A DNA stretch of 57,402 nt from a virus, in IMG/VR virus record IMGVR_UViG_3300034418_009574, positions 1 to 57,402 of that record; one strand, written 5' to 3'. The stretch's first letter is position 1. Each line of letters starts with the position of its first letter. Both the position numbers and the translations under genes were made by a program. Shown here one piece after another: positions 1 to 48,591 of this stretch. A model generated the notes under the pieces. It was not told the DNA's origin and made no database searches. It worked only from the letters and a program-made list of their open reading frames with translations.

Positions 1-123
1 CCCGGCTCCGCCGGAAGCAGCGGCTGTCCAGTAACCTTTACTAGAGTTATAAGTATATGTAATTCCTCCGACGTCTTGAGTATCGCCGTCCGAAGGACTA
101 TCGGGAAAATTTATTACTGCCAT
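1..123 (-). CDS. Tail-appendage paralogue, N-terminal fragment (3' end outside window)
   Basis: A reading frame opens with ATG at base 123 and runs off the left edge of the window. The 41 visible residues begin MAVINFPDSPSDGDT and continue with an aromatic ITYTYNSSKGYW stretch, the same N-terminal cassette that starts the genes at 2743, 4319, 9108, 10333 and 36266. A purine-rich AGAAGGA lies about 7 bases upstream of the start. The distal part visible here (SGGAG) shares a 23-base identical block with 4197-4219 in a neighbouring paralogue, so recent duplication or recombination is likely. It is presumably another receptor-binding or decorating tail protein; the domain that would say so is not in view. 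Confidence 0.8.
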   Translation of the reverse strand, partial: MAVINFPDSPSDGDTQDVGGITYTYNSSKGYWTAAASGGAG

Positions 124-127
124 AATT

Positions 128-2743
128 TTATCCTTCTAAAGCTGCTGTGGGTGGAGTGAAGTTTGCTGTGTAACGTGCTAGGCCTTTGGTGATGCGGAAG
201 TCTGATATGTAGCCTGTAATAGTTCTTGTCGTTGGAGCATAAGCACCTCCGCCAAGATATAAATTTCCCCCTTCTGCTATTGTATAAGCGCCAGTGTAAG
301 TTGAACCGTCTTGCACACCATCTACAAACATTTTTGTATCATTGCCCGACCTTGTTACAGCAATATGAATCCAATTGCTAGTTTTTATATTTTGTGAGCC
401 AGTAATTATGTAAGTAGAAGAAGATGCCGAATGAACATACCAAGAAACATAATTGTTAGTAGTATTAAATTCTACACCCCAAGAGTTAGCTGTGGTGCCT
501 GGCGTACCTTTTGAGAATATTCCACCAACACTTGCCGCCGCAGATATATTGACCCAGCATTCAATGGTATAGTCTCCACTTCCCAGCTCAAAGCTGTCCT
601 CTGCTGGCACCATTAAATAATCACCATTACCATCAAAATACATTGACGAGCTTAGATACTTACTCTGAGTCGTAGATGACTTCACGTCACCGTTTAGCGT
701 CAAAGTCTGTACTGACTGCGACTTATCAATGATGCCAGCGTTCGTACCGTTAAGAAGCAAAGATGTATTTGTGATTGCTGTCAGTGGTGCTGTGGGTGGG
801 GTGAACGCAGAAGTGTAGACAGCAGTACCTTTTACAACTCGAAGATCAGTAATATTTCCCTTCAAGGAACCAGCAGCGCCATCCCAGTTACCTCCTCCAA
901 TTGCAGTACCTTGGCTTCCTTGATTTAAATCAAAATCTGTACTATCAGTAGTTGTTACATCTAATTCTCCATTTACATATAAGCTACATGTTGTGCCTGA
1001 TCTTACCAGTGCGACATGAGCCCAAGTATTATAAGGAACGTTAATTGTTCCTGCGAACAGACTGTTTGCTCCGCCCGACCCATTAATCCCGTATTTTGCG
1101 ACAAAAAATTTATTATTATAGCCAGTATGGTTATAGCGCAAAGAAAAGGAGGTAGTATTGAAACTTATACTAGAAATAATAGACGGATAATTAACTACTT
1201 GTCCTCCGTCTGAATAAAACCAACATTCTATAGTAAAATCACCGTCTAACGTAAAAGCAGAGTTACTTGGTATAGTCAAATAATCACTAGTTCCATCAAA
1301 ATACATTGACCCGCCGTTGGTACCAGCTGAATATTTAATGTAGTCATACGGAGCTGTAGGTGCTGACACAAATGTACTAGGAACAGTAAAAGTTCTGTTA
1401 TTACTTGAATAATCTTTTATTTCTAAACCCACACCTGTAAAGAAGGCATCGGTGGGGTTAGAAGTAGTCTGAGGCTCTGTTGGAGTAGTAGGAGCGTTTC
1501 CGCTGTATACGGCAGTGCTTAAACTAAATCGAGCTTCTTTTATATTTCCTTTGAAACGGCTGCTTGCAACACCGCCTATTATCCAATTACCAGTTGCACC
1601 GGGTGTTTCTGAATTAGAAAAACTAGTTTCTAGTGATCCATCAGCCCAATAATAATAAGTACCATTATATCTCTCCCAAACAAGATAGTGCCATTTTCCA
1701 TCTCGTAAATCAGTATTACACGTTGGAGTTTCTACACCAACGTTTGTATGAGTCATCATATATCCTGTTGTACCTGATACACCAAAGGCTTCTAATTGAT
1801 TTCCCCCACCATATTTTCCTAGCACAATAGCATCACCCGTATACCCATCAAGTTTCATCCAACATTCGAATGTCCAGTCACCAGGTTGTAAAGTAGAAAA
1901 CCCTAAATCCATTACGTTGGCACCATCACAGTAAATGCTATATCCACCATGGCGATACGGACTAAACGTATTTTGAGTTACATTTCCAGCTACAGTAATC
2001 GTATGACTATTGGTACTTGAATCTACAAAAGTATTATTGACTTGATTATTAGTACCTACTGATGTAATCAATGCAGTCGTATAGTTGCTGTTTTGTACCT
2101 GAAATGCCAAAGTAAACTCAGAAATTGCGGATGCAATATTCACACCGTCAGAAGCTCGGAATGTAAGTGAGAATGTTCCTGCATCTGCATCGTTTGTAGA
2201 TGGAGTAATTGTGAATACATTTGTGTTTGCTCCAGTGCCTTGTGTTACGGTCGCAGTATTTCCCGAAGTATCACTTGCTATACTATAAGTAATTGGAAGT
2301 CCTTCTGGATCTGTAGCAGTAATTGTAACTACAGTTGGAGTACCATCAGTTGCAAGACCATAGCTTGAAGAGGCTCCAGAAATAGTTGGATTTGTATTGA
2401 TCAAAGCAATATTATACCATCCGCTACCGTTCCATAGATATAGTCGATTGCTTGCTGTTACAAATGCAAGATCTCCTGCATTTGCAGTTTCTGGAAGCAA
2501 GTCTATAGTTGCGTAAACTGTAACACCGCTTTGATCCGCAAACTCAAGAGCTGTACCACCAGAATTTACTTTTGCAATCTGGCCCGCAGTTCCGAGAGCT
2601 GAAGGAGTGTCAGACAGTCCTGTAAAAGAAGTGACTGCTGTCTGTGAAGCAGCACTTTGCCATACTCCTAAAGTAGAGTTGTATACAAAACCCTGATGAG
2701 TATCACCATTTGAAGGACTTGCTGGAAAATTAATTGCTGCCAT
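128..2743 (-). CDS. Modular tail adhesin with three LamG/concanavalin-A-like domains
   Basis: An 871-residue appendage protein. It opens with the FPASPSNGDT cassette (residues 1-32), then a GLSDTPSALGTAGQ linker, a DLAFVTASNRLYLWNGSGW cassette and an Ig/cadherin-like module containing ATDPEGLPITYS and FRASDGVNIAS (to about 215). The rest is three repeats of a LamG/ConA-like fold, each with a S(I/M)Y(C/F)DG entry and a (F/I)ECW signature, at about 265-420, 475-655 and 690-865. Such domains usually bind carbohydrate, so a surface-glycan adhesin at the tail tip is the natural reading; this is inferred from the fold. It is 10 bases downstream of another paralogue and is preceded by a clear AAGGAG site. 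Confidence 0.8.
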   Translation of the reverse strand: MAAINFPASPSNGDTHQGFVYNSTLGVWQSAASQTAVTSFTGLSDTPSALGTAGQIAKVNSGGTALEFADQSGVTVYATIDLLPETANAGDLAFVTASNRLYLWNGSGWYNIALINTNPTISGASSSYGLATDGTPTVVTITATDPEGLPITYSIASDTSGNTATVTQGTGANTNVFTITPSTNDADAGTFSLTFRASDGVNIASAISEFTLAFQVQNSNYTTALITSVGTNNQVNNTFVDSSTNSHTITVAGNVTQNTFSPYRHGGYSIYCDGANVMDLGFSTLQPGDWTFECWMKLDGYTGDAIVLGKYGGGNQLEAFGVSGTTGYMMTHTNVGVETPTCNTDLRDGKWHYLVWERYNGTYYYWADGSLETSFSNSETPGATGNWIIGGVASSRFKGNIKEARFSLSTAVYSGNAPTTPTEPQTTSNPTDAFFTGVGLEIKDYSSNNRTFTVPSTFVSAPTAPYDYIKYSAGTNGGSMYFDGTSDYLTIPSNSAFTLDGDFTIECWFYSDGGQVVNYPSIISSISFNTTSFSLRYNHTGYNNKFFVAKYGINGSGGANSLFAGTINVPYNTWAHVALVRSGTTCSLYVNGELDVTTTDSTDFDLNQGSQGTAIGGGNWDGAAGSLKGNITDLRVVKGTAVYTSAFTPPTAPLTAITNTSLLLNGTNAGIIDKSQSVQTLTLNGDVKSSTTQSKYLSSSMYFDGNGDYLMVPAEDSFELGSGDYTIECWVNISAAASVGGIFSKGTPGTTANSWGVEFNTTNNYVSWYVHSASSSTYIITGSQNIKTSNWIHIAVTRSGNDTKMFVDGVQDGSTYTGAYTIAEGGNLYLGGGAYAPTTRTITGYISDFRITKGLARYTANFTPPTAALEG

Positions 2744-2753
2744 TGTTTACTCC

Positions 2754-4319
2754 TTACGTAAATATAAAGTTTTTAAACTGTGTTATAAGAGTATCTATAG
2801 GAGCACTATTATTCATTACTCCAACACCCCCTACCTTATGGCTCATAGTGCCTCTAGCAACATATCCTGCTACTGGGGAAGGCGCATTTGCCCCAAAAAA
2901 GGCCATATGATTATCATATGTTCCGTCTATAGGTAAGTAACATAAGCCATACCCTTGGGAACCTCCACTTGTAGTTTCATCAAGCCATGTATTATCAGTA
3001 ACATTATAAATTCTTGCATCAAAACCCGCACCCGCACCTGTCGCTAGTTGTATTGCAATAATGTACCATTTACCTGTAGTTAAAGAATTGCTCCCTGAAT
3101 AGTACCCGCTACTAGTTCCGAACGCCCAACCTGCTCCAGAGTATGCTATATCTTGTAAACCTCTACTAGAATTATCAACTGCACTTATACCAATTGATGC
3201 ACCCCCTAAATAATCATATTGCACAGCATATACTAGTATTCTATCGCTAGAGGTAGGATCAAAACTAAATGCGGGCATACCGGTAAAGAGTATAAGTTCT
3301 CCTGTATTATCTATTCTACCTGCATCATTTTGCAGTAAGGCATCTGAAACTGTATCGGCTAATGTTACTGTGGTTCCTCCACCACTTCCAATTATTTGTG
3401 TACCGTCGCCTGCTACTAGATAGGGACCATCAAAAAATTGTAAGCTAATTGTTGATGTTCGTGCACTAACATTTAATCCATCGCTAGCTTTTGATCTAAA
3501 TGTGAACGCTCCTGCGTCCGAAAGAGTTGTGGAAGGAGTAAAAGTAAAAGTACCTGCACTTTGACTTATTGTTGCCTGTGTTTGGTTGCTGGGGCTAGTA
3601 TCATAACTATATGTAATATCGAATCCTTCAGGATCAGTTGCAGCAACAGTAAAAGACGAAGTAGAGCCATCAATAGCTAGATCTATTCTTTCAGGAGGTT
3701 CTGTAGTCCATGTGACATCTTCGTTTGGGCCATTGTAAATTCTATCCCACTCTGTACCATCCCACATATAAAGTGCTTTTGTATCTTGAGCTACAGCTAG
3801 GTCTCCAAGAGTATTTCCAGTAGAAGGAAATGCAGCGAGGTTTGTATAAGACTGTGCGGATCCGTCAGCTCCGTCAGCTCCGTCAGCTCCAGGAACACTT
3901 GTACTAACCCACTGACTTGAGTCAGTATCCGTATAATAAATATACATAACTGCTTCGGAAGAGCTCCACCACAGGTCTCCTGCAGAAGGACTAGTAGGTG
4001 CTGTTTCTGATACAGTTACAGATGCACCTCCAGACGCGCCGCCTCCACTACCTGTAGGATTGCTTTGTACCCACTGATTTGCAGTGCCGTCATTATAATA
4101 TACAAATGTTTTGAGTACGCTCGGATCAAACCAAAGATCGCCTTCACTCGGACTAGTAGGTGCTGTTTCTGATACAGTCACCGAAGCGCCGCCTCCCCCG
4201 GCTCCGCCGGAAGCAGCGGTAGTTTTCCACGCACCTTTTGTAGAATTATATGTATATACAATTCCATTTATTGTTACTGTATCGCCGTTTGATGGGCTAT
4301 CAGGAAAATTATATGCCAT
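2754..4319 (-). CDS. Modular tail adhesin, cassettes A-B-B-C-Ig plus lectin-like C-terminus
   Basis: A 521-residue protein made almost wholly of cassettes found elsewhere in this window. Cassette A (FPDSPSNGDT, residues 1-33) is followed by two copies of cassette B (APTSPS.GDLW then YYNDG or YYTD, then QWV; about 45-143), a short Gly-Ala-Asp repeat, cassette C (GDLAVAQDTKALYMWDGTEWDR; about 157-197) and an Ig/cadherin-like module with DPEGFDITYSYD (about 205-297). The C-terminal 200 residues resemble the LamG-type beta sandwich of the next gene in overall composition but lack its repeats. Role inferred as a tail-tip receptor-binding or decoration protein. The start is supported by AAGGAG just upstream. 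Confidence 0.75.
   Translation of the reverse strand: MAYNFPDSPSNGDTVTINGIVYTYNSTKGAWKTTAASGGAGGGGASVTVSETAPTSPSEGDLWFDPSVLKTFVYYNDGTANQWVQSNPTGSGGGASGGASVTVSETAPTSPSAGDLWWSSSEAVMYIYYTDTDSSQWVSTSVPGADGADGADGSAQSYTNLAAFPSTGNTLGDLAVAQDTKALYMWDGTEWDRIYNGPNEDVTWTTEPPERIDLAIDGSTSSFTVAATDPEGFDITYSYDTSPSNQTQATISQSAGTFTFTPSTTLSDAGAFTFRSKASDGLNVSARTSTISLQFFDGPYLVAGDGTQIIGSGGGTTVTLADTVSDALLQNDAGRIDNTGELILFTGMPAFSFDPTSSDRILVYAVQYDYLGGASIGISAVDNSSRGLQDIAYSGAGWAFGTSSGYYSGSNSLTTGKWYIIAIQLATGAGAGFDARIYNVTDNTWLDETTSGGSQGYGLCYLPIDGTYDNHMAFFGANAPSPVAGYVARGTMSHKVGGVGVMNNSAPIDTLITQFKNFIFT
3862..3890. repeat. Short 9-bp tandem repeat encoding Gly-Ala-Asp
   Basis: Three tandem copies of a 9-base unit (ccgtcagct on the plus strand) encode a Gly-Ala-Asp collagen-like linker in the adhesin at 2754-4319. 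The equivalent linker in the paralogue at 9119-10333 has its own 9-base repeat near 10019-10051. Such repeats are likely to change copy number by slippage or recombination. Confidence 0.8.
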
Positions 4320-4329
4320 TAGTTACTCC

Positions 4330-5256
4330 TTAGAACCAAGACTCTGTTTCAGCAGGGCCACCGCCACCGCCTCCAGAGCCTGCAACATTACTTGCAATTC
4401 CTCTGGAAATATTATACTCTTTAATTGTTCCTTCCAATTTTTGAAGTTCTGTTAAACTAAAAGGAACTATACCACTATTTGCTCGAATACTTTCTCGAAA
4501 CTCCTCTAAAAGTGAAACAATAGAAGATCGTTTTGCGGAAATTTGCAGTCTTTCATTTACATTAAAAGTAGGAGCGGTGTATGAAGTAGGCACAGCCCGA
4601 GTTAAATTTGCAAAAGGATTTACAGATTGTAAAAGACCCGCCGCTGGAACAGTTGTTGTTCTATCTGGATCGAACATATACATTGCAGAATAATTATCAA
4701 ATGAATATGTTCCGGCTGTAAAAGTCTTTTCATATACAGCCTCATCAGTTCCACTGTCTTGAACAATATTTCCAGCATTTCCGATATTTGTCCAGCCGGT
4801 CAGATCAACACCACTCCAATTTGTTTGCCGTATCATATAAACAGTTGTTGTAAATATGAAAGTAATATCAATTGCATCACTTGTATTGATTTCTCGAGTT
4901 GCAACAAGTCCTTGCAAATCAACTCCAATATTTGACTGAGTATTTTGTAGATTATTATAGGTAGTCCAACTAGCTGTGGGACTATATAGTTGAAGCCCAT
5001 TTACTGCAATTCCAAGAGGCTGTGCCCAACTTGACGACAGTGTAACTCCAGAGTTTTCGACACTTAAAGTATCCGTTGCTGTCACCGTAGTAGACGCCCC
5101 CGTAGAATTTAATATAAAAGCTCCTAAGTCGTAAGTAGTGGTCCCTTGCAGAGACCACGCAGGATACCCATCTACATCTATAGTTAGCGTATCACGAGGA
5201 TACGCTAACTTTATAGAAGGATCAGAAGTTGATCTTATTGTAGCGGTATTTGACAT
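4330..5256 (-). CDS. Putative tail-appendage structural protein
   Basis: A 308-residue protein, mostly predicted beta-strand and rich in Ser, Thr and Asn. It lacks the FPDSPSNGDT cassette of its neighbours. A central module (about 155-200) with FTAGTYSFDNYSAMYMF resembles the C-terminus of the 9119-10333 paralogue (VSAGTYNLDTFSGMYFI), which ties it to the same appendage family. The C-terminal third changes character: a likely alpha-helical, Leu/Glu-rich segment (about 235-290) followed by a hexaglycine and an acidic tail ending ESWF. The helix could be an oligomerisation or attachment segment. It sits 1 base from the upstream gene, in the same transcription direction. No enzymatic motif is visible. 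Confidence 0.6.
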   Translation of the reverse strand: MSNTATIRSTSDPSIKLAYPRDTLTIDVDGYPAWSLQGTTTYDLGAFILNSTGASTTVTATDTLSVENSGVTLSSSWAQPLGIAVNGLQLYSPTASWTTYNNLQNTQSNIGVDLQGLVATREINTSDAIDITFIFTTTVYMIRQTNWSGVDLTGWTNIGNAGNIVQDSGTDEAVYEKTFTAGTYSFDNYSAMYMFDPDRTTTVPAAGLLQSVNPFANLTRAVPTSYTAPTFNVNERLQISAKRSSIVSLLEEFRESIRANSGIVPFSLTELQKLEGTIKEYNISRGIASNVAGSGGGGGGPAETESWF

Positions 5257-5257
5257 T

Positions 5258-7087
5258 TTAGATACTCACATTTGCTACGATATCACTTACACCAGAGGCC
5301 GTAATAATTATATCTACATTTACGTCCGCACTTGTAGAAGTGCTCACAGTCGTAGTAGTTGCTCCTCCTGCAAATGTCATTGTAGAACCCTCAATAGAAA
5401 GAGCCACCGTTGTAGCAATTCTATCCCCTGATATATTATAAGCACTTACTGCAACTGTACTATTAATATCGGTTCCTGTATGGTTATATGAATTAGAAGC
5501 AGGAGTAATGGTAATACGTACAGGAATAGACGGAGTAATTACATGAGTTTCCAAATATTCGGCATCTTTATTTTGTGCAGTTGCCATAATTCTGCCAGTA
5601 CTGTCTCTTCCAATTGAATAAATTTTATTCGTTAAAGTAGTTGATAACTCCCAACCATTGGTATTATCCCAATTATAGAAATAAAATGCATCTGCTCCCA
5701 TAACTCCAAGAAGAGTTTTTGCGTCATTAAAAAACATTGCATTTTTTGCAGTTTCAGGAATTGTAACGGTAGAATGATGAGTAAGTACAGTTGCATCAGC
5801 AGCATCTACAGAATAAGTAATAAAAGTACGACCATCCGTTGTGCTGTCATGAATACGATGCTCTCCCGCCATATACATAAGAGTGAGATAACGATTTCCA
5901 CCGCTTACAAAAGATTCGTTCCATACAACGCCTCGGAATCCATAGGAATCATTTGTAGTTCCCATAAGATTCAACATATGAGTGGAGCTTAAATCACCAC
6001 TAATTGATGTAACTTGGTCTCTTGTAAAAGTATCCGTAGTTTTATCCCACTTAAATACCCATGGGTGATAGTTATAGCTCGTATCAAAATACGGAGTATA
6101 CCATACACGATTTCCTGCACTTGCTGGATCTTCAAAATGTTTGGAAGAAAACTTTATCATTTGAGCCATTGTAGCGTTCATTGTACGAGCACCACCATAA
6201 CTAGTTCCTGCCGCTGCTGGAGCTGTGTTAAACGTATGAAGATCCGTTGTATTATTACTCGAATAATTTAATCGCGTAATATAGTGTTGGTAGTCCGTGT
6301 CGTGATGAGTGTACAAATACAACGGAAGATCAGAATTGTCAGCTCCAATATATTGAACCCAGTATGGGTTTCGTCGAGACAAATTCATATTCATCTGAGA
6401 ATCATCAAAATTGGAAAAGCTATTTCTTGCTATTCCCATCCAAGGTCTAAAGTTATAGCCCCATCGATTCGTTGCAGAAATTCCTCCCACATAATCACCA
6501 TTTGGGTCTTTGTGCACATAAATTGTAGGCATTTGAGTGTCACTTGAGCCTGTTGTTCCTCCATACCCCCAAATGTTTGTAGGAAGTACTTCATAAAGCT
6601 CTTTATTGGAAGGCACGTTGTACCATACATGAGTGTAATACCAATTATAAGAAATCATTGTTTCATTCCAAATAATTAACTCATTTCCATTTGCATCTGT
6701 AAAACGATTTAAGTAAGAACTAGGAGTATCCGGATCAATACAAAATTGATGCTCATACTGAACATTATTTAAGGTATTTGCTCCGTGGCCTCCTTCGTAA
6801 TGCCAGCAATACATTGTTTCGTCTGCAAGAACTTGACACATCGGAGTACCCGCGCGAAGAGTATATCCGTTACCGTCTGTATTTCGAGTATAATTCGAAG
6901 AGTCATTATAGCCCATTTGTGCTTTCTTTTCAGACGAGGCCCTCATCTGAATAGTTCCATTAAAAATCGGAGCAAGAGTAGTTTTGTCATAAGCATCGTG
7001 GTCCAAATAGATAGTATTCTTTCCAGGCCTTGGGTCCTCAAAAATTGTACAAACTCTAAAGGATCGTGCGTCTTTAATCTTTGCCAT
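5258..7087 (-). CDS. Putative tail-appendage protein, aromatic-rich with C-terminal Ig-like domain
   Basis: A 609-residue protein unlike its cassette-built neighbours. Residues 1-500 are unusually rich in Tyr, Trp, His and Asn and contain recurring (Y/F)W-type segments, compatible with a beta-propeller or other all-beta carbohydrate-interaction fold; I cannot name the family. Residues about 520-609 look like a bacterial Ig-like (BIG2-type) domain, with VRITITPASNSYN and a Thr/Ser-rich end. The AAAAACTGATGGC start context and the position between small tail genes make it part of the same late unit. Function as a receptor-binding or glycan-contacting tail protein is inference from position and composition. 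Confidence 0.6.
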   Translation of the reverse strand: MAKIKDARSFRVCTIFEDPRPGKNTIYLDHDAYDKTTLAPIFNGTIQMRASSEKKAQMGYNDSSNYTRNTDGNGYTLRAGTPMCQVLADETMYCWHYEGGHGANTLNNVQYEHQFCIDPDTPSSYLNRFTDANGNELIIWNETMISYNWYYTHVWYNVPSNKELYEVLPTNIWGYGGTTGSSDTQMPTIYVHKDPNGDYVGGISATNRWGYNFRPWMGIARNSFSNFDDSQMNMNLSRRNPYWVQYIGADNSDLPLYLYTHHDTDYQHYITRLNYSSNNTTDLHTFNTAPAAAGTSYGGARTMNATMAQMIKFSSKHFEDPASAGNRVWYTPYFDTSYNYHPWVFKWDKTTDTFTRDQVTSISGDLSSTHMLNLMGTTNDSYGFRGVVWNESFVSGGNRYLTLMYMAGEHRIHDSTTDGRTFITYSVDAADATVLTHHSTVTIPETAKNAMFFNDAKTLLGVMGADAFYFYNWDNTNGWELSTTLTNKIYSIGRDSTGRIMATAQNKDAEYLETHVITPSIPVRITITPASNSYNHTGTDINSTVAVSAYNISGDRIATTVALSIEGSTMTFAGGATTTTVSTSTSADVNVDIIITASGVSDIVANVSI

Positions 7088-7099
7088 CAGTTTTTCTCC

Positions 7100-7330
7100 T
7101 TAGGCCTGAGCTTGATACCAAGCTACTACTTCATTGAGGTCTGTCCAGTCTGCACGACTGCCATCATCTTGAGTTTTCCAAGGTTGTAAGACCACAGATG
7201 TGTGATTATTTTCAGAATCTACTACAAAAATTTCTGCAACTCCGTCTGTAAGAGTTGCGTGAAAATTTTCAGTAACGTCAACAGGGTTTCCATCTTCATC
7301 TGGAACCTGTATAATTTTTGTAAAATCCAT
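7100..7330 (-). CDS. Small conserved-looking protein in the tail-fibre array
   Basis: A 76-residue acidic protein starting MDFTKIIQVPDEDGN and ending VVAWYQAQA. It has no signal peptide or membrane segment. An AAGGAGATAATC ribosome-binding site directly upstream supports the start, and the gene is packed between two large appendage genes with 11-13 base gaps, so it is unlikely to be a spurious frame. I do not recognise the family. Small genes between tail fibres can encode fibre-assembly chaperones or adaptor caps, but nothing in the sequence proves that here. Confidence 0.65.
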   Translation of the reverse strand: MDFTKIIQVPDEDGNPVDVTENFHATLTDGVAEIFVVDSENNHTSVVLQPWKTQDDGSRADWTDLNEVVAWYQAQA

Positions 7331-7341
7331 AGATTATCTCC

Positions 7342-9108
7342 TTAAGTTCTCTTGTGGATAAATTGTAAATATAAATCTGAGCCAATAGCACTTGTACCAA
7401 CATTTGTGATATCGACAGTTAAGTAGTCTCCTTCAGCCATTGTCAAAGTAGGATTGCTAACTGTTCCACTTGTGTTTCCTGCAGAAACAGTTACTGTTTG
7501 AGCCGATGTTCCGTTTTTCTTTACATCTGCTACAACATCAGCATCCGCTAGACCCCCTAACTTCGCATTTATTTTACTAACTTCCAGATTGAATGGTGCA
7601 TACCATCTTTTAGTCCCTGTTCCAACCTCTAAAGACCCGATTTTATGCATATTTATTGCTAACGGCGTATTATCTCTAACAGTTGCAGGTAAAGACGTCG
7701 TTGTTGCAAATTGAGTTGTATTTGTTTCTACAATTTTTTCAATTTTTGCTTGAAATTGAACAGTATCATCTAGATATTCTCCCATATCTTTTACTTTGAA
7801 TTTGTCCGTTGTGGCATCATATACAAGACACAAGTTTCCAATATCTGCAACAGTAGGAACTGGCTTAACTTCTACTGGAGTAACGTGTCCTTCTTGATCA
7901 TGTTGAAAAAATAATCTATAGTTTCCATTTTCGTAAGTCTCTACTTCGAGAGGCTTAATATTTATTTGCCCTCGCATAGCAGAATGATTACCGCACTGAT
8001 AGTACAAAGTATCCGGCGCGTCGCTTGGAACTACAAATACTAAAGTTCCACTTTCGTTTCTGGAGCCTGTTACACCGCTTGTATACTCTCCTATATAACT
8101 TCCTGCTGAAAAATTTGTTCCATCATCTGTTGTTAAGTAGAAAGGATGGCCCGAAAGAGAAGCGTCTAAATTGAAAGTATAAGTTCCTCCCTTGTAAAGA
8201 GGGCCAAGAGTAGGATTGTTTCCAGAAGCAGTTCCACTAAAGGTGTAGTACCCTGTCGTTGCAAATTCAACATCATAAGTTACAGTGGGAGCAGTAAGAG
8301 TAGGTGCTGTAATTGTTGAGGGTACAGCAATAACAAGTCTTTGAACTTCAGTAGCTTGTCCTCCATTTATTGCAGGATTTGTAACTCCTGTAACATTAAG
8401 TGTGGAAGTAGACCAACTTACATTATTATCTGTGCCTGCACCTTCAATCCACTTTAAATAAATTTTATGAGTTTGAGTCATACTACCATGAAGGTCGTGT
8501 GCCGCAAAATTATTTACTGTATAAGTTCCCTGATTATATAAAGGTACTACAGATTGCTGTTGATTTTCAATCTTTGTTCTAGCATAAGCTACTGTTCCTG
8601 CATCCCAAGTCCATAGCCAATCTGCCCCATGGCCTGCCGTAGGATCGTCTACATTAATTGTAAATGTTTCTGGAGTAATTGAAAGGTCTACTTCAAAACC
8701 TGGATTAGTTGCTAAATCTTGTTGTACTTGAGTAAAATTAACGGCACCTGCTGTAGTTGCTGTAGTAGTAGTTTTTCCATCTTGAGTTACAACTAAAGCT
8801 GTAGGGTTTGGAACTTCTGTAGTAGGTGGAGGAATAATTGCAATATTACCATTTGTTTCATCTGTTGTAATTTTTGCATCCCCGAGATTAATTGTTCCCG
8901 CAGATACATACAAGTCTCTCCACTTATTTGTAGAAGACCCCAGATCATAAACTTCATTTCCTACAGGAAGCCAATGTTGTCCAACATTTACAGGCAGTCC
9001 TTCTGGATCTGGAGTCCAAGCGCCCACAGTAGAGTCATAAGTAAATGTCTTACCTCCTGAGGTATGTGTGTCGCCGTTATTTGGACTGTCTGGAAAATTT
9101 ATTGCCAT
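7342..9108 (-). CDS. Modular tail appendage with intact cupredoxin-like (type 1 Cu) domain
   Basis: A 588-residue protein. Cassette A (FPDSPNNGDT) covers residues 1-33 and is followed by a YDLGSSTNKWRDLYV cassette (about 53-68) that recurs in other fibres of this window. A beta-rich region (about 130-270) precedes a cupredoxin-like domain at about 283-385. That domain shows SGHPFYL with His321 and YYQCGNHSAM with Cys372, His375 and Met378. The Cys-x2-His-x2-Met spacing plus an upstream His is the classical type 1 copper ligand set, as in amicyanin. The C-terminal about 100 residues (from residue 490) form another beta domain that could be receptor-contacting. Copper binding is predicted, not shown. 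AAGGAG lies upstream of the start. Confidence 0.75.
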   Translation of the reverse strand: MAINFPDSPNNGDTHTSGGKTFTYDSTVGAWTPDPEGLPVNVGQHWLPVGNEVYDLGSSTNKWRDLYVSAGTINLGDAKITTDETNGNIAIIPPPTTEVPNPTALVVTQDGKTTTTATTAGAVNFTQVQQDLATNPGFEVDLSITPETFTINVDDPTAGHGADWLWTWDAGTVAYARTKIENQQQSVVPLYNQGTYTVNNFAAHDLHGSMTQTHKIYLKWIEGAGTDNNVSWSTSTLNVTGVTNPAINGGQATEVQRLVIAVPSTITAPTLTAPTVTYDVEFATTGYYTFSGTASGNNPTLGPLYKGGTYTFNLDASLSGHPFYLTTDDGTNFSAGSYIGEYTSGVTGSRNESGTLVFVVPSDAPDTLYYQCGNHSAMRGQINIKPLEVETYENGNYRLFFQHDQEGHVTPVEVKPVPTVADIGNLCLVYDATTDKFKVKDMGEYLDDTVQFQAKIEKIVETNTTQFATTTSLPATVRDNTPLAINMHKIGSLEVGTGTKRWYAPFNLEVSKINAKLGGLADADVVADVKKNGTSAQTVTVSAGNTSGTVSNPTLTMAEGDYLTVDITNVGTSAIGSDLYLQFIHKRT

Positions 9109-9118
9109 TGTTTACTCC

Positions 9119-10333
9119 TTAAGGTAGATCAGCTCCATAATACTGAATACTATCTTTGGTGCCATCTTGTGCTGTAATAAAATACATTCCTGAAAATGTA
9201 TCTAAATTATAAGTTCCTGCTGAAACATCTTTTCGATATACATTTACCGCACCTTGTCCAGGTATAGCATCAGAAGAAAGAGTTGCATGGGAAGTATATG
9301 TATTTATATCAGATACTGCATTCCAAGAAGAATCGTTTCTTAATAGCCAAATTCTAACCGGGCCATCAAAAGTTATAGATCCTGCATCCGCTTGGCCACT
9401 ATTTACATCTGTAGTACCCCAAGCCCCTTCTAAATATGGAGCAAGCGTAGATAAATTACTTGCATAAGCGACCCAGTTACCTCCATTTGCAGTTAGTGTT
9501 AAGCCGTCTGTTATTTTTGCCATCGGAGCTAGAGAATGATGTTGCCAATTAGTAATATCTGCAACAATAAAGCTCAAACTGAAGTCTACAAAACGAGTTG
9601 TAATTCTTGCTCCATCCGACGCACTTAAACGTGCTCGAAAAGTTCCTGCATTTGCTTTTGTAGTAGTTGGCGTAAAAGTATATACACCGGTACTTTGATT
9701 TATAGTTGTATCTGCACTAAGCTGGGAAGGTCTTGCATTATTCGCAGTTTTATAAGCAATTCCATAAGTAATATCAAAACCTTCGGGGTCTTGTGCCACC
9801 ATTGTAACTGTACTTGTAGTTCCATCACTATTTAATTCTTGTGTAGTAGGCGGCTCTGTAGTAATTACAGGACTTTCATCATTTCCTGCAGCTATTCGAT
9901 CCCACTCTGTACCATCCCATACATAAAGTGTTTTTGTATCAGAAGTAAAAGCAAAATCTCCTACAGTATTTCCGCTAGTAGGAACTGCTGCAAAATTTGC
10001 ATAAGCAGTTACAGAAGAACCATCAGCACCATCAGCACCATCAGCACCATTGGCTCCTGCGGGTCCTGCAGGTCCTGCGGGTCCAGATACACCTACCCAT
10101 TGACTTGAAGATCCGTCACTATAGTAAACATAAAGACTACTAACATCTGTACGATACCACAAGTCTCCCGCTTTTGGATTTAAAGGAGCAGTATCAGAAG
10201 AAGTAACTGTCGCGGGCAAAACTCCTACAGCAGTATCCTTCCATACTCCTTTTGTCGAGTTATAGGCATACGTTACACCATTTAGTGTAAATGTATCTCC
10301 GTTACTCGGACTATCTGGAAAATTATATGCCAT
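9119..10333 (-). CDS. Modular tail adhesin, cassettes A-B-C-Ig
   Basis: A 404-residue paralogue of the gene at 2754-4319. Order: cassette A (FPDSPSNGDT, 1-33), cassette B (GDLWYRTDVSSLYVYYSDGSSSQWV, about 45-85), a Gly-Pro-Ala/Gly-Ala-Asp collagen-like linker of about 25 residues, cassette C (YVWDGTEWDRIAAG), an Ig/cadherin-like module (DPEGFDITYG to LSASDGARITTRF), and a unique C-terminal domain of about 130 residues ending DTFSGMYFITAQDGTKDSIQ. That last piece resembles a module in the gene at 4330-5256. The shared N-terminal half and divergent C-terminus is the pattern expected when the distal domain determines specificity. AAGGAGTAAAA precedes the ATG. Confidence 0.75.
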   Translation of the reverse strand: MAYNFPDSPSNGDTFTLNGVTYAYNSTKGVWKDTAVGVLPATVTSSDTAPLNPKAGDLWYRTDVSSLYVYYSDGSSSQWVGVSGPAGPAGPAGANGADGADGADGSSVTAYANFAAVPTSGNTVGDFAFTSDTKTLYVWDGTEWDRIAAGNDESPVITTEPPTTQELNSDGTTSTVTMVAQDPEGFDITYGIAYKTANNARPSQLSADTTINQSTGVYTFTPTTTKANAGTFRARLSASDGARITTRFVDFSLSFIVADITNWQHHSLAPMAKITDGLTLTANGGNWVAYASNLSTLAPYLEGAWGTTDVNSGQADAGSITFDGPVRIWLLRNDSSWNAVSDINTYTSHATLSSDAIPGQGAVNVYRKDVSAGTYNLDTFSGMYFITAQDGTKDSIQYYGADLP

Positions 10334-10342
10334 TTTTACTCC

Positions 10343-11644
10343 TTATACAAATGTGATCGTGCAAGATCCGTTACTATTTGCGGTTCCTCCACTTGTTGTA
10401 GTGCTTCCATTAGTAACTACATTTGAATCAAAATATCCTGAGCCACCCGCTCCTCCAGACCCTGCGTCGGGAAATACAATAGCTCCCCCGCCTCCGCCAT
10501 AGTAGCCACCACCCCCACCTCCAGCTCCGCCGCCCGAAGGAAAGAAGCAACCTATGCCGCCATTTCCAAATCCCGGGCCAGAGTTTGCCGGATTGGGATT
10601 AGTATAACCTCCTCCCGATGAAGTTCCTGCAGGTGCCGCACCACCATTTCTTCCGGATCCAGGATTTCCATTGTATCTATTACCTCCAGCACCTCCACCT
10701 GCACCGGTTTGAGTACCTCCTCCCGCTGGAGTATCATTTGAGTTGGTGCTAGTGTCACTACCAGCACCTCCTGTAGTGCCTCCACCCCCGCCGGTTTGAG
10801 TGCCTCCATTCATGCTACCGCCACCACCACCAGCTACCATTATAGGAACTTCTCCAGAACCGTAAGTACCTGTGTAAATGCCAGTACCTTCTCCGCCATT
10901 TCCTCCATATCTTGAATCTGTGCCATTATTACCTTTAGCCCCTACTAAAAGATTAATACTTGAATTCGCAGCAAGAGTATATCTACCTGATGTAAGCCCT
11001 CCTGCACCCCCGCCTAACCCATCGCTACTTCTACCTCCACCTGCTCCACCTTCTAAATCAAAATCTAAATCAAAATCAGCGGCAGTATTATTACTTAAAG
11101 TATAAACGGTATTAGCTGCAAATCCTGTTACACTTCCTGATGTAAAAGTTGTATTTCCACTTACTGCAGGAGATACTGTAAGTGTAGCAAAAGCAAGATA
11201 TACAGTCGACGTTGTTCGTACTACTTTTCTTCCATCGTCTGCTTTAATTCTTAGTGTAAAGTTTCCCGCATTAGCAGAATTTGTAGATGGTGTAATTGTA
11301 AAAGTTCCATCATTATTATTTACAATTGTTGCTTGTGACTGATCTGCTGGAAGCACGTCATAGCTATATGTTACAGGAAACCCTTCTGGGTCCGAAGCCG
11401 CTACCGTAACTGTAGTAGCTGTACCATCAGATGCAAGAACATAAGAAGATTGTGCTTCTGTAGTAAAAATTAGACCTGCATCAGGACCAGAAGCTACACG
11501 ATCCCACCTACTACCTTTCCAAACATGCAAAGTTCCTGTTGCTTGATCTACAATAATTTCACCTGTATTACCGCTTGCAGGAAAACTTGCAGAGTTTGCA
11601 AAACTTTTTTTACCTCTTGCTTTTATGTCTGAATAGTTTGCCAT
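10343..11644 (-). CDS. Glycine-rich tail adhesin (paralogue 1)
   Basis: A 433-residue protein that starts directly with cassette C (ASFPASGNTGEIIVDQATGTLHVWKGSRWDRV, about 19-53), then the Ig/cadherin-like module (DPEGFPVTYSYD to IKADDGRKVV), then a glycine-rich domain from about residue 190. That domain begins FDLDFDLEGGAGGG and carries long Gly runs broken by Asn, Thr and Tyr. Glycine-rich domains of this kind occur in phage and bacterial adhesins, where stacked polyglycine helices present variable loops; the T4-like gp38 adhesin is a known precedent. The ATG overlaps the stop of the upstream paralogue (11644), indicating translational coupling. Role as a receptor-binding tip protein is inferred. 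Confidence 0.75.
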   Translation of the reverse strand: MANYSDIKARGKKSFANSASFPASGNTGEIIVDQATGTLHVWKGSRWDRVASGPDAGLIFTTEAQSSYVLASDGTATTVTVAASDPEGFPVTYSYDVLPADQSQATIVNNNDGTFTITPSTNSANAGNFTLRIKADDGRKVVRTTSTVYLAFATLTVSPAVSGNTTFTSGSVTGFAANTVYTLSNNTAADFDLDFDLEGGAGGGRSSDGLGGGAGGLTSGRYTLAANSSINLLVGAKGNNGTDSRYGGNGGEGTGIYTGTYGSGEVPIMVAGGGGGSMNGGTQTGGGGGTTGGAGSDTSTNSNDTPAGGGTQTGAGGGAGGNRYNGNPGSGRNGGAAPAGTSSGGGYTNPNPANSGPGFGNGGIGCFFPSGGGAGGGGGGYYGGGGGAIVFPDAGSGGAGGSGYFDSNVVTNGSTTTSGGTANSNGSCTITFV

Positions 11645-12915
11645 TATGGTACCGGTGTCATCACAATTTTGCCGCCTGCTTGTTCTGCTCCTCCCGCCGT
11701 GTTAGAAACTGAAGTTGCTCCATTTCCTATAAAACCGGAGCCACCGCCACCGCCTGCACCACCCGCAGAAGCGCCTCCGCCTCCACCGCCGTAGTAGCCT
11801 CCGCCACCACCACCTTGCCAGCCGTCTCCACCTTTGTATCCTCCTCTACCTCCAGGAGCCCATCCATCACCTCCTGGACCATTTGTAGAGTTATAGAATC
11901 CATTGCCTCCTTGTCTAAAAGAGCCCGCGCTACCGCTTCCACGATCGCCAGATCCTCCACCGCCTCCAGCAGTTTGAGTACCTCCACCGCCTCCGTATGC
12001 GTTCCAACCACTTACTTTTGTTCCGCCACCGCCCGAGTCACCTCCTCCATTACCTCCTGTAGTATTACCACTACCGCCACCACCACCGCCTACGATATAT
12101 GGAGTATCTGCATTTGTACTACTATAAACTGCAGAAGCCCCTCCTCCAGACCCCGTACCAGGCGCAGCAGCTCCTACACGTAATTTAATGGATCCGCCCG
12201 CAGGAATAGAATAAGTAGCAATAGCACGACCTCCCGTACCGGCAGAACTGCCACCTTGAACATGTCCTGAACCTCCTTGTACATCAAACTGAAGTACGAC
12301 AGCATTAGTATTATTATTTGTAACTGTGTATTCTTGGGTTGTATCAGTCAAAGAAATTGAAGCTGCTCCATTAACTGAGTCCCAGCTACTAGCTCCATCT
12401 ATAGAGGGGCTGAAGTCAAGAAGGCCAGAATAGAAAGATAAATTCATAGTGCTTGTTTTTGAAGATACATTCACACCGTCACTTGCTTTAAATCTTAAAC
12501 TAAACGTGCCGGCATCTGCCTCCGTAGTAGTAGGTGTTACAGTAAAGGTTCCACCGCTATTTGTGATTGTAGCCTGTGCTTGATTACTTGGAACAGTATC
12601 ATGTGAATATGTTATTGGAAATCCTTCTGGATCAGTCGCAGCAACAGTAATCACTGTTGCAGTACCGTCATCATTTAAGTCATAACTTGCAGCGGGTTCT
12701 GTTGTAAACTCTGGAAGTTCGTCTGCTCCAGAAGCTACACGATCCCACTCTGATCCATCCCAGACATAAATACCTCCAGTATCTAAAGCAAGTACAAGGT
12801 CTCCTGCACTATTTCCACTGGAAGGAAACGCAGCAAAGTTTGCATAAGATTTAACTATTGCTCCGCTTGCTTTTACGTCAGAATAATTTGCCATTATCGC
12901 TCCGTCATTACCCAA
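11644..12915 (-). CDS. Glycine-rich tail adhesin (paralogue 2)
   Basis: A 423-residue close paralogue of the gene immediately downstream. It has cassette C (FPSSGNSAGDLVLALDTGGIYVWDGSEWDRV), then the Ig/cadherin-like module (DPEGFPITYSHD to FKASDGVNVSS), then a glycine-rich C-terminal domain from about residue 215 with a VLQFDVQGGSG entry matching the paralogue's DLDFDLEGGAG. An in-frame ATG eight codons in (MANYSDVKASG) aligns with the paralogue's start MANYSDIKARG and is probably the real start (base 12891), which also removes a 22-base overlap with the upstream gene. Two adjacent glycine-rich adhesins with conserved scaffolds and different Gly-rich loops suggest duplication followed by specificity divergence. 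Confidence 0.75.
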   Translation of the reverse strand: MGNDGAIMANYSDVKASGAIVKSYANFAAFPSSGNSAGDLVLALDTGGIYVWDGSEWDRVASGADELPEFTTEPAASYDLNDDGTATVITVAATDPEGFPITYSHDTVPSNQAQATITNSGGTFTVTPTTTEADAGTFSLRFKASDGVNVSSKTSTMNLSFYSGLLDFSPSIDGASSWDSVNGAASISLTDTTQEYTVTNNNTNAVVLQFDVQGGSGHVQGGSSAGTGGRAIATYSIPAGGSIKLRVGAAAPGTGSGGGASAVYSSTNADTPYIVGGGGGGSGNTTGGNGGGDSGGGGTKVSGWNAYGGGGGTQTAGGGGGSGDRGSGSAGSFRQGGNGFYNSTNGPGGDGWAPGGRGGYKGGDGWQGGGGGGYYGGGGGGASAGGAGGGGGSGFIGNGATSVSNTAGGAEQAGGKIVMTPVP

Positions 12916-15900
12916 CCTTGAGTAGCATTATAGTATACTAATCCAAAGGCTGCTCTATCTACATCAATTGTTAAATCTGTTGCGCTACCTTCAATATTAT
13001 GTCCATTTCGTGCTATTGTAATATTATTTGTTGCCGCATTTCCAGTACCATCAATAATTCTTATTTCATCGCCAAGTACTGCAGCTACAGGAAGTGTAAC
13101 TGTTACTGCAGTTGAAGTATCTACAATCAACCTGTCTCCAGCTTCTGCAGTATAGGCTGCTGTTTTCTCTGCCCAAGTACTACTACTTCCACCCCCAGAA
13201 GGATTAGTTTTTACCCATTGAGTAGATGAACCATCATCAATGTATACATACAAGAAAAGATCGTCATCGTCAAACCACAGGTCCCCTGCCGTTGGCGAAG
13301 TAGGTGCGGTATTCCCTACAGTTACAGAGGCACCACCACTTGAGCCTCCTGAGCTACCGCCCGCTCCAGAGGGATTAGTTTGTACCCATTGATTTGATGT
13401 GCCGTCATTGTAGTATACATATAATACTAAATCTACATCGTCAAACCATAGATCTCCTGCGGACGGACTACTCGGAGCTGTTCCTGATACGGTTACAGAA
13501 GCTCCGCCTCCGCCTCCAAGTCCTGAGATTGCAGCTTGAACAAACGCAGTAGTTGCAATTTGAGTTGTATTCGTACCACTTGTAGCAGTAGGTGCAGTAG
13601 GTGTCCCTGTCAGTGCAGGATCTGCAAGAGGTGCTTTTAAAGCTAGATTATTTGTTACTGTTGTAGAAAAGTTTGCATCATCCCCCAAAGCTGCTGCAAG
13701 TTCATTGAGAGTGTCTAAAGCTCCTGGCGCTGAATCTATAAGATTTGCAATTTCTGTATCTACATAGGAAACAGAAGCAGCATCAGTAATACCATAACCT
13801 GCCAAGGTAGTAGGAGTACCTGTAAGGCTACTCCAAGCTCCGTCAAAAATTTGAGAGTTATTTGCAAGTTCTACCCAGTTACCTGCATGAGCAAAATAGG
13901 CTTTTCCTGTTCCATGAACGTGTGCAAACATACCATGATAGGTTGATGCACTTGGTAAGTCTCCTGTAGTTGCAAACATATTTGCATAGTACGCCTTACC
14001 TGTAGTAATAAAATCGTTGCTACCAATATCTATATCTAATAAAGTACTAGCACCATCTGTAATACCATATCCTGCAAGAGTAGTGGGCTTTCCAGTAATT
14101 GTACTAAATGTTACGGGCTTATCAAATGTGCCTCTAGAATCTGATACCTGTATGGAAGTTGCATTGAGTGCTTTACCAGCAATAACAGTACTAACAGTAG
14201 TAGAAATAGTGCCGTTATCTTGTACATACATTGTTGTATCAGGAGTAAGCGATGAGTGTACATCACTAATTGCTCCAGCAAGCATTACAGTTACTGTATC
14301 GCCATCTGCAACAGTTGATTGTGCAATTCCTAAGTAAGAATCTTTTGTACTTGCAGCAGAAGTACGGAAAAACGAAGTATAGATATTACTATTATTACTA
14401 GGATAAGTGTCCCTATCGCTAGATACCATTGCAAGATAGCCCGCAGGATCATTCTCCCCCGCAGGGAATCTTAGCGAAGCACTACCATAATCTCTTGTTA
14501 CTACTAGAGTAGCTCCTAGCTCATTTGCAAATACCCCAGAAGTCGAAACAGATGCTAAAGCTCTATGAATAGTTCCATCATCATATTTTGTAAGAATACC
14601 AAACTTATCATCTGTTTTTGAACACTTTATTGTATGCTCTAAGATATAATAATTTGCATTATTATTTCCAGGCCCCATACTAAGTACATTTGATTCTGCG
14701 TTTGAAGCAAATGCAAAAGTACTTCCATTAAAAGTAGAGCTTCTCATCATTAAATCGACAGGAGCCCCTACATACCAATAATTTCTTCGGCTAGAAATGA
14801 GCATTTCAGAGCCTACGTGGTAGAATATTTGATTTCCGTTAGTTGCCCAAGTCGTATTTGTTGCAGCAGTAGACCAAGTAATACTTGTTCCAGAAATTGT
14901 ACCAATCGAGTATGTTACAGTTCCTCCAGAAAGAGAAGCTGCAACCAATTTATTATAAAGTTTTGACCACTCAAAAGCTCCATAAGCTGGAGTAAGACCA
15001 ATTGCTATTGCGCTACCAAAAGTAATTGTAGTTCCTGATACTGTTACAAAATGACAGTCAGAACCATTTAATGCAATTAAATCACCAGTTTCAGTAGTAA
15101 TAATTTTACTATACGCACCCACATTATTTGCGGGACCTATAGATAAAGTTCCTGAACTATTTGTAACAATATAAGAATTCGTTCCAACTTTAAGAATACC
15201 TGTTGAAGTCCCATTAATATGAAAATACTTATCAGGAGTAAGACTAGATAAAAGAGTTTGAGGAGTTCCAGGACTAAAAGTTAGAGTAGCAAGATTTGTA
15301 TTCCAAATTACACCTACAGTTTGACCACTAGTATTCTGATAAAATTGTTGGTATACTCCGTCTTGATCGTTGTAATCAAGAGCATCTTTTTGAGTATAAT
15401 AATGAGTAGTGCTACTACTATTTGCCAATTGCGCATGAGCGCCTGCTACAGGCGCTGTAGCTACTGCCGTTACCTCTCCAGTAGTTGCTCCAAGAGTTAC
15501 TGCAGTTCCAGAAGTAATTGCACCATCTGCAATAAAATCTATTTGAGAGTCTCCGCCTGATGTACTAAATCCTGCGATCTCTCCTTGTACAAATGCAGTT
15601 GTTGCAAGTTGTGTGCTACTATCTCCTGTTGTTGCCGTCGGGGCTGCGGGAGTACCTGTAAATGTTGGAGAAGCTAAAGGTGCAGCATCTGTGATACCAT
15701 ATCCTGAAAGAGTAGTAGGAGTACCTGTTAGTGAGCTAAACGCTGCGTCAAAAGTACTGTAGTCAGTGCCTGCCACCGCTGCACTAATATTTCCTGCTCC
15801 GTCTGCTTTTACAATGCCATTAATTGCACCGACTACAGGATCAGTTTCTGTATAACTTGTGAGATAGCTACTTAAATCGGCGGGAGTAAATGTAAATACG

Positions 15901-17639: not shown

Positions 17640-17670
17640 TAAAAACCCCTATATTAACTTACTTTGTAAA

Positions 17671-19164: not shown

Positions 19165-19175
19165 TTTAAAATCTC

Positions 19176-35742: not shown

Positions 35743-36266
35743 GGTTCATAAACTCGTCTAAATTCTGCGGTTAGAGAATGATAACTATGGTACAAATATT
35801 TTATATTATATCCCTCACACACTACTTTTATAGTTTGATTTCCATCATACTCTGGAATAATTATATCAAAGTTTTTTGCTTGATGTACATCTAGAAACTT
35901 TGCTATAAGATTAATATCTTCTTTAGTTCTATTAGAAAAAGATACTCCAAACATATCTCTTTTAGAGTTTGTTCCATCTATAGCTCTTTGTTCATATCCA
36001 TCTCCAAATTTTGCGGTCAAAATATTAAAATTTGAAGCCCTACTTAAACCCCTATCAAAAGTATAGAAAGAATCTGTAAGAGGAACTCCTCCAGATATAG
36101 CATCTGCAGGAACTTTTAGTATAAATATCTCTCCATAAGAGGATGTCCCTCCTGCAGTCCCGGGATCAATGCTCCATGCTCCTATTACGGCATTATATAC
36201 ATATGTTACTCCATTGTATGTATAAGTATCGCCATTTGAAGGACTACCTGGGAAATCTGCTGCCAT
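35739..36266 (-). CDS. M: Minor tail protein (lambda gpM-like) with fused adhesin cassette
   Basis: A 175-residue protein. Residues about 70-175 match the phage minor tail protein M family (FGDGYEQRAIDGTNS, VSFSNRT, IAKFLD, YNIKYLYHSYHSLTAEFRRVYEP), and position just before L agrees. Residues 1-33 (FPGSPSNGDTYTYNGVTYVYN then GAWS) are the same cassette that begins five appendage genes at the left of the window. Finding it on a core tail-tip protein suggests the cassette is a docking or assembly tag and not a receptor-specific element. Lambda gpM is 109 residues, so the extra length is this N-terminal module plus a linker. AAGGAGACTTAA precedes the ATG. Confidence 0.85.
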   Translation of the reverse strand: MAADFPGSPSNGDTYTYNGVTYVYNAVIGAWSIDPGTAGGTSSYGEIFILKVPADAISGGVPLTDSFYTFDRGLSRASNFNILTAKFGDGYEQRAIDGTNSKRDMFGVSFSNRTKEDINLIAKFLDVHQAKNFDIIIPEYDGNQTIKVVCEGYNIKYLYHSYHSLTAEFRRVYEP

Positions 36267-44695: not shown

Positions 44696-44732
44696 TAAAT
44701 ACGACCTCTTGTAAAAGAATATTTTATTTTTG

Positions 44733-44768
44733 AATTATAAGTATAATATATTATACCATAAATGTCAA
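44733..44768 (-). promoter_or_regulatory. Strong sigma70 promoter before tail chaperone
   Basis: TTGACA (44768-44763) and TATACT (44745-44740) on the minus strand are 17 bases apart. A second TATAAT-like element overlaps 6 bases downstream. The predicted start is near 44733, giving a leader of about 38 bases to the G start. It lies just after the tail-tube terminator, so it would restart transcription for the chaperone, tape measure and tail-tip genes. Confidence 0.88.
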
Positions 44769-44784
44769 GAAAAATTTTTGAAAG

Positions 44785-44808
44785 GTTAAAAGGGGCCGAA
44801 GCCCCTTT
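44785..44808 (-). terminator. Intrinsic terminator after the tail tube gene (UUCG loop)
   Basis: On the minus strand AAAGGGGC, loop TTCG, GCCCCTTT forms an 8-bp perfect stem with a stable UUCG tetraloop, starting 9 bases after the tail-tube stop. The T-tract is short (TTTT running into AACCTTT), so termination may be partial. It separates the tail-tube unit from the promoter at 44733-44768. Confidence 0.85.
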
Positions 44809-44816
44809 AGCAAAGA

Positions 44817-46118: not shown

Positions 46119-46181
46119 AGTTTTCTCCTATGTAGCTTGAAAAGACTTGGACGTGAATCCTTTGATTCGTGCCAGTATTTT

Positions 46182-48535: not shown

Positions 48536-48546
48536 AAGTATATAAG

Positions 48547-48573: not shown

Positions 48574-48591
48574 ACGTTCCAAACCCTGATA

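Follow-up and report, generated by a model that had tools for sequence, protein, structure and literature searches.

How might the receptor-binding apparatus of an uncultured marine phage stay assembly-competent while the heads that meet the host turn over? The question is raised by a virus record of IMG/VR, IMGVR_UViG_3300034418_009574, a 57,402-base stretch of a marine bacterial virus that we analysed whole and call the window. Its positions 1-17639 hold a tail fibre gene and then a row of adhesin-like genes that runs up to the record end, and these genes share cassettes, A, B, C and D, that precede C-terminal heads. We think it probable that this row serves a siphophage as a multi-adhesin receptor-binding array, with heads exchanged by homologous recombination at the conserved cassettes. 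A receptor-binding role for the heads is suggested by their position, by tail-fibre matches and by the head domains; we further infer adhesion, a location on the virion, assembly as trimers or in branches, and exchange driven by general homologous recombination. The window was compared with relatives that bear G labels. All compared records are linear metagenome contigs, and the coordinates of several relatives are given after reorientation.

Cassette order and layout of the array

A sequence-only reading had proposed that the proteins share short modules, and this proved sound. Hidden Markov models (HMMs) seeded on the window copies recover A, B, C and the Ig/cadherin-like D as homologous modules, and after retraining on relatives each of the four models gave 0 matches to reversed proteins. 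By hhalign, B and C are homologous (E 8e-9, 21 columns, probability 96%) and look like variants of one small repeat; A matches both weakly (A-B 7.9e-5, A-C 1.6e-4; probabilities 61% and 51%). The order A-B-C-D is kept in 101 of 101 proteins with at least two module types, and D is the last module in all 83 proteins carrying it, in a record set minus nine near-identical records and with genes cut by contig ends included. The B and C models can cross-match, and overlapping matches were settled by score, so single assignments may be wrong; despite this, 0 order violations were seen.

An AlphaFold2 model of the protein encoded at 9119-10333, built on an alignment of 32 sequences, predicts A, B and C each as a separate three-strand unit (blocks mostly at a predicted local distance difference test score, pLDDT, of 80-92); D is predicted to be rich in strands (mostly pLDDT 92-98), and poorly predicted linkers join the parts. 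Searched against PDB, the A-B-C-D model resembles mainly cadherin, Ig and S-layer chains and a few glycoside-hydrolase chains, with no tailspike among the 50 matches listed; in BFVD, Synechococcus phage tail fibre proteins come first, followed by collagen-repeat and Gly-rich phage proteins. In the N-parts, defined as everything up to the D end, the Pfam matches (Collagen, Cadherin_5 and Big_9) all stay below threshold. Runs of six to nine Gly-X-Y triplets occur in several linkers, which suggests trimeric stalks. Among isolate phages, two A-B-C-D type proteins matched 8 and 13 records, covering no more than 20% and 27% of the query; apart from 'Marine virus AG-345-F15' (Kyanoviridae), one of the 13, every record was a Synechococcus phage. 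In genome_contigs one weak relative appeared (53 aa at 43%), in a Faecalibacter contig.

The array extends beyond the window in a near-identical record, G002 (IMGVR_UViG_3300034374_009254, 101,258 bases). There the array after the fibre spans about 19.2 kb (57782-76960, reoriented) and comprises 12 genes, 9 of them with cassettes; the gene that the record end cuts at 1-123 is complete in G002, two more cassette genes follow it, and this remainder reads, in order, A-B-C-D with LamG, A-B-C with a Gly-rich head and A-C-D with LamG. Opposite-strand genes follow, the third encoding 320 aa. The array genes share one orientation in both records. In the window, J-type genes and the tail fibre directly precede the array, and the module HMMs mark seven complete array-region genes (fibre included) and two other tail genes. 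The array genes and the two other marked tail genes are as follows.

1-123, minus strand: 5' end of the next array gene, with cassette A, cut by the record end; ATG at 123, AAGGA upstream
G002:70472-73162: the G002 counterpart of the 1-123 gene, an 896-aa A-B-C-D protein with LamG
128-2743, minus strand: 871-aa adhesin-like protein, A-C-D and three LamG domains (PF13385, E 2e-47, 3 stretches)
2754-4319, minus strand: 521-aa protein, A-B-B-C-D and an unassigned head (module HMMs)
4330-5256, minus strand: 308-aa cassette-free protein, a weak homologue of the 9119-10333 head (28% identity, E 4e-8) and clustered with it by BLAST
5258-7087, minus strand: 609-aa cassette-free protein, with PHROGs of unknown function, phrog_20698 and phrog_22549, on its C-terminal part
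7100-7330, minus strand: 76-aa open reading frame (ORF) within the array, cassette-free; AAGGAG upstream
7342-9108, minus strand: 588-aa protein with cassette A only; residues 157-386 match phrog_677 (baseplate wedge tail fibre connector)
9119-10333, minus strand: 404-aa protein, A-B, nine Gly-X-Y triplets, C-D and a head (module HMMs)
10343-11644, minus strand: 433-aa protein, C-D and a Gly-rich head (module HMMs)
11644-12894, minus strand: 416-aa protein, C-D and a Gly-rich head; its start overlaps the fibre gene stop
12894-17639, minus strand: 1581-aa tail fibre opening the array, B-B near its C-terminus (phrog_2631 tail fibre, E 1.7e-63, and others)
35739-36266, minus strand: 175-aa minor tail protein (phrog_14), cassette A at its N-terminus
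36277-40053, minus strand: 1258-aa collagen-like tail fibre, cassette B at its N-terminus (PHROG and module HMMs)

The earlier picture of adjacent cassette genes stands but needs amending in that three cassette-free genes are interspersed and the row exceeds the window; the last start, placed at about 12891, lies at 12894. The DNA of window 1-214 is 92.5% identical to G002. AAGGAG stands a few bases upstream of 6 of the 10 starts inspected in the window; it is missing from the two Gly-rich genes, whose starts overlap stops, and the start at 5256 has no clear site. In two relatives, G025 (16446-21755, reoriented) and G024 (3822-9131), a single 1769-aa ORF with B-B-C-D and LamG resembles a fusion of the fibre and the first adhesin, where the window has two overlapping genes.

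The heads are varied. The claim that the C-termini differ completely fails for two pairs: the Gly-rich proteins of 10343-11644 and 11644-12894 align at 48% identity, C-D included (their heads nonetheless fall in separate BLAST clusters), and the 9119-10333 head resembles 4330-5256 as listed above. The latter may be a head that has lost, or never had, cassettes. LamG was correctly recognised in 128-2743, and LamG-type heads in relatives cluster with the head of this protein. Heads described as 'cupredoxin-like' and 'lectin-like' are unconfirmed, because Pfam at 0.01 assigns neither 7342-9108 nor 2754-4319 to a family. Among proteins scanned in relatives, 5 of 7 carry Pfam Gly_rich_2. LamG is common in phages (335 records) and is uninformative on arrays; a protein search with LamG2-3 gave relatives at up to 60% identity among the best 80 of 169, and a plus-strand scan of the three nearest yielded a single weak C match (L312).

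The virus itself resembles a siphophage in gene content. Terminase, portal, protease/capsid-type, major tail, tape measure and lambda-type tail-tip genes share one direction in the window. Of 1647 isolate records with a portal match, the best 20 come from Vibrio and Pectobacterium phages (39-41% identity), which we take to be the T5-like group. In G002 there are also genes of the SbcC/SbcD, SSB, helicase, polymerase, primase and replicative-helicase types, which are not T5-specific. From the portal matches and the G002 gene content we read the window virus as a siphophage with a T5-like portal.

This setting bears on whether the proteins are receptor-binding adhesins at all or other parts of the virion surface, such as decorations, spacers or polysaccharide-acting enzymes. 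Ig-like and collagen-like modules are also found in decoration proteins, and a Pfam match at 0.01 was found for neither 5258-7087 nor the other of the two larger cassette-free array proteins, both of which would suit such parts. We nevertheless judge this explanation unlikely: the array adjoins the tail fibre and J-type genes, its proteins match tail-fibre PHROGs and bear LamG or Gly-rich heads, and A and B also occur on two other tail proteins. With A on the protein of 35739-36266 and B on the collagen-like fibre of 36277-40053, next to the tape measure gene, the array modules are used elsewhere in the tail as well, which may hint at how docking works.

Probable head exchange among relatives

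We compared N-parts and C-parts (the remainder) separately in 71 complete proteins carrying D, pairing proteins from different records. Where N-parts were at least 75% alike, C-parts were less than 45% alike in 28 of 42 cassette pairs. A backbone control of 331 cassette-free proteins, each 250 aa or longer, showed the same pattern in 1 of 316 pairs when the proteins were split in half and in 0 of 308 when the split was set at the median fraction of the cassette proteins. Discordance in either direction affected 30/49 cassette pairs vs 4/379 and 0/382 in the two backbone splits. Particular pairs illustrate both directions; they come from a set that retains near-identical records and serve as examples only, not totals. 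G029:44588 and G037:3 have N-parts 97% alike and no detectable similarity between C-parts (the G037 copy is 5'-cut). Three A-B-B-D proteins (G029:47460, G009:39020 and G017:45504) have N-parts 85-89% alike, and the sole detectable C-pair, G029-G009, stands at 41%. In the opposite direction, closely similar C-parts sit on different cassette combinations: G020:67810 (A-B-B) and G029:49045 (A-B) at 94%, G017:53964 (A-D) and G009:39020 (A-B-B-D) at 90%, and G009:45976 (A-D) and G020:74897 (A-B-D) at 92%. Relatives therefore do show C-terminal swaps at or near cassette boundaries, as the sequence-only reading had expected.

The sharpest case is a near-isogenic pair. Over 55,833 bases the window matches G002 at 99.950%; of the 28 mismatches, 23 lie within window 1343-1545, and outside this interval there are 5 in about 55.6 kb. 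The mismatches lead into one divergent tract.

204-1545, minus strand: allelic replacement tract relative to G002; LamG2-LamG3 of the gene at 128-2743 differ

In bins of 50 bases, identity is 98% at 1353-1304 and then mostly 36-63% down to 204, except for 70-82% in about 803-604. Below the tract it is 84% at 203-154 and 94-100% from 153 down, across the gene end and the start of the next gene. The G002 allele is also carried by G022 (IMGVR_UViG_3300025771_004295), with 12,651 bases at 100% and 99.976% over 21.3 kb. A double exchange is the simplest reading of the tract, though one of its two alleles comes from a single assembly. A donor of the window LamG2/LamG3 tract was not identified among the records compared; the best donor-like matches are 73-74% over LamG3 and, for LamG2, one 54-bp piece at 83%, and the LamG of the next gene in G002 and G022 matches at 80% over 357 bp, conserved gene end included.

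Two smaller differences accompany this comparison. At about 57131-57302 the window is ~170 bases longer than G002, between matching segments 57303-57402 and 1298-57130; the surplus is an insertion, a repeat or an end artefact. Against G004, in a stretch at 99.9% overall, single-base differences cluster at 22836-22872 and 24338-24507, possibly small conversion tracts.

Breakpoints between relatives point the same way. In six pairs, DNA blocks of at least 85% identity stop close to the D end, at -7, -1, -11, +2, +5 and +8 nt; other block ends lie at -24 or +59, at about +143 to +195, or deep in LamG. With pairs of the window and G002 excluded, 45 of 108 internal block ends fall no more than 30 nt from a module boundary (16 expected; 2000 random draws never gave above 30), and within the module region the count is 45 of 61 vs 25 expected. 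We rate this test below the comparison of N- and C-parts, because block ends are not independent and conservation itself falls at module ends.

The same turnover is visible between G009 and G020. Ahead of the fibre, three genes are 92-98% alike; past the array, the 12 listed proteins (at least 120 aa) reach 96-100%; the fibres themselves stand at 86%. The seven cassette proteins between are 46-85% alike and not kept in order, in four of them the match covers at most three quarters of the length, and one protein of the G020 array region has no match. The array is a hotspot of variation and not the sole one, because other genes also vary between these two: G020:32499-33914 is at 35% and 37061-41569 at 34% over half its length, and 44731-52269 is also diverged or partly matched.

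Could such mosaics arise with no exchange, by heads evolving faster than cassettes under diversifying selection? In most discordant pairs it is indeed the N-part that is conserved and the C-part that has diverged, many LamG heads can still be aligned at ~35-45%, and the fall in conservation coincides with module ends. A difference in rate alone is improbable as the explanation: it fits poorly with C-parts of undetectable similarity on N-parts 85-97% alike and with C-parts 90-94% alike on different cassette combinations, and it is insufficient for two records that are near-identical outside a tract, diverged within it and alike again beyond it.

Assembly chimeras would produce a similar mosaic if the repeats of A-D and LamG had made assemblers join wrong heads and N-parts. 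The records are metagenome contigs with internal repeats throughout. One 30-mer from the window LamG2 was queried and had 0 other exact matches in viral_contigs, so the window allele rests on a single assembly, and the G001 contig ends one base short of the first mismatch. Even so, chimeras seem very unlikely to account for the pattern. The G002 version of the tract is repeated in G022, and G031 (99.931% over 14.5 kb) agrees with G002 in the array downstream of the tract only, although these assemblies may share samples. With the same reservation about shared samples, G017/G027, G024/G025 and G026/G033 agree at 99.7-100% through their common array parts. In the window itself, the 128-2743 ORF stays open across the tract, a 200-bp zone is at about 90%, and the tract re-joins shared sequence, so that an error would be needed on both sides.

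Variable tip genes are the usual targets of diversity-generating retroelements (DGRs), invertase shufflons and integrases; that such a programmed diversifier drives the exchange is scarcely credible here, given uniformly oriented array genes in the window and G002 and the searches that follow. None of 11 records matched reverse transcriptase (PF00078, E<=0.01), and 3 of 14 control genomes did, in a search that did not extend to template/variable repeats and on records that may be incomplete; the earlier statement that no reverse transcriptase is present is borne out to that extent. Serine recombinase/resolvase (PF00239) and tyrosine integrase (PF00589) were each matched in 0 of 8 records, which may likewise be incomplete, with positive controls.

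Proposed mechanism, weight of evidence and precedents

We therefore favour head exchange by homologous recombination. Under this proposal, the three-strand units A, B and C, together with D and sometimes a collagen-like Gly-X-Y stalk, would serve as attachment and spacer parts, and the C-terminal head, whether a LamG triplet, Gly-rich or unassigned, would bind the host surface. Homologous recombination within the conserved cassettes, probably in mixed infections and aided by the repetition of the cassettes, could move heads from one array gene to another and from a phage to its relatives. Such exchange would keep the order A-B-C-D-head while heads or B/C copies are swapped, gained or lost. General homologous recombination accords with the kept order and with similarity ending near modules. 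Laboratory precedents for it come from DT57C/DT530 and S117, described below. A bolder version is tentative: an ordered docking grammar (A, B copies, C, D, head) in which any head can be plugged in anywhere along the array, a siphophage virion shows ~10 different heads simultaneously, and fast reshuffling in populations, by ordinary homologous recombination with no dedicated enzyme, makes a combinatorial adhesin library.

Several observations weigh against exchange. Its reciprocal signal is thin, with C-parts at least 75% alike on N-parts less than 45% alike in 2 of 12 pairs (3/329 and 0/330 in the backbone splits), and most reciprocal cases have partly similar N-parts. Pairs share proteins, so that neither pairs nor block ends count as independent events; 63 of the 108 internal ends lie more than 30 nt from any module boundary; and, as noted, genes other than those of the array diverge between G009 and G020. 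An annealing or RecA-type recombinase was not found among the 10 G002 proteins outside the array that were scanned. On the structural side, whole-chain fold matches have low TM-scores, as flexible linkers would lead one to expect, and the matches therefore concern parts; the model of a Gly-rich protein failed (pLDDT 49), and the heads, that of 9119-10333 included, have no reliable structure model. All the evidence comes from metagenome contigs.

CBA120 and S117, of the Ackermannviridae, belong to a type of phage with contractile tails. Several of their receptor-binding proteins share N-terminal XD/TD assembly domains that are conserved and are proposed as sites of homologous recombination, and a laboratory recombinant of S117 with a replaced receptor-binding domain has been obtained (PMC11414711). 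These phages have four tailspikes with gp10-like XD domains, where the window array uses A/B/C/D cassettes. For the T5-like DT57C and DT571/2, branched lateral fibres of LtfA and LtfB are inferred, and these very close siphophages differ in a divergent fibre region; in a laboratory-passaged relative, DT530, an in-register deletion joined ltfA and ltfB and was ascribed to homologous recombination between identical sequences, and recombination within ltfA changed host range (PMC4728585). The accessible parts of that paper describe two fibre proteins, compared with about ten here, and show no repeated A-B-C-D set.

Large sets of receptor-binding proteins also have a precedent. The long fibres of RaK2 comprise nine receptor-binding (tail-fibre) proteins, 11 are predicted in phiK64-1, and both have conserved N-terminal assembly domains (PMC10253068). 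The supposition that an array of this size is unusual is thus only partly right: the number is matched, but in giant myoviruses (Alcyoneusvirus) in which 7 of the 9 RaK2 proteins are depolymerases and the N-terminal domains resemble the CBA120 tailspikes. Like the multi-protein systems of the CBA120/RaK2 type, the window encodes fibre-like proteins in one locus with common N-parts and different C-termini.

In marine metaviromic islands, host-recognition genes are highly variable and C-terminal parts of fibres are markedly under-recruited (PMC3909814); the work is based on read recruitment, and its excerpted text shows no cassette array. A survey of domain shuffling reports recent domain mosaicism in tail fibres and tail spikes (PMC10684548), with pairwise comparisons across many phages and, in the sections available, no ordered tandem array within one genome. 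Tail fibres of Synechococcus phages S-N03, S-H34 and their relatives carry recognisable A-B sequence (40-41% over 79 aa), in genomes of 167-175 kb that belong to another group than the window phage. Our literature search, of mostly open-access coverage, did not find an ordered four-cassette, ~10-gene array with natural exchange in marine siphophages. Multi-protein branched receptor-binding systems, head exchange and hypervariable fibre C-termini in marine phages are known; the ordered four-cassette array is a new form of this known kind of system.

Together, these comparisons indicate how the receptor-binding apparatus of uncultured marine phages may remain fit for assembly as heads are replaced. 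If the proteins are adhesins, the virus could alter its binding without a dedicated mutation machine, and the strict cassette order and the near-isogenic head difference make a change of specificity without a DGR testable, by reads as well as by single proteins. The module HMMs can detect and annotate further arrays whose N-parts, as here, lack Pfam matches above threshold.

Two further tail-region proteins lie beyond the fibre gene, at 19176-23594 (1472 aa) and 17671-19164 (497 aa), for which a PHROG match at 0.001 was not found. A search of viral contigs with the latter gave 53 related loci, many of the matches partial.

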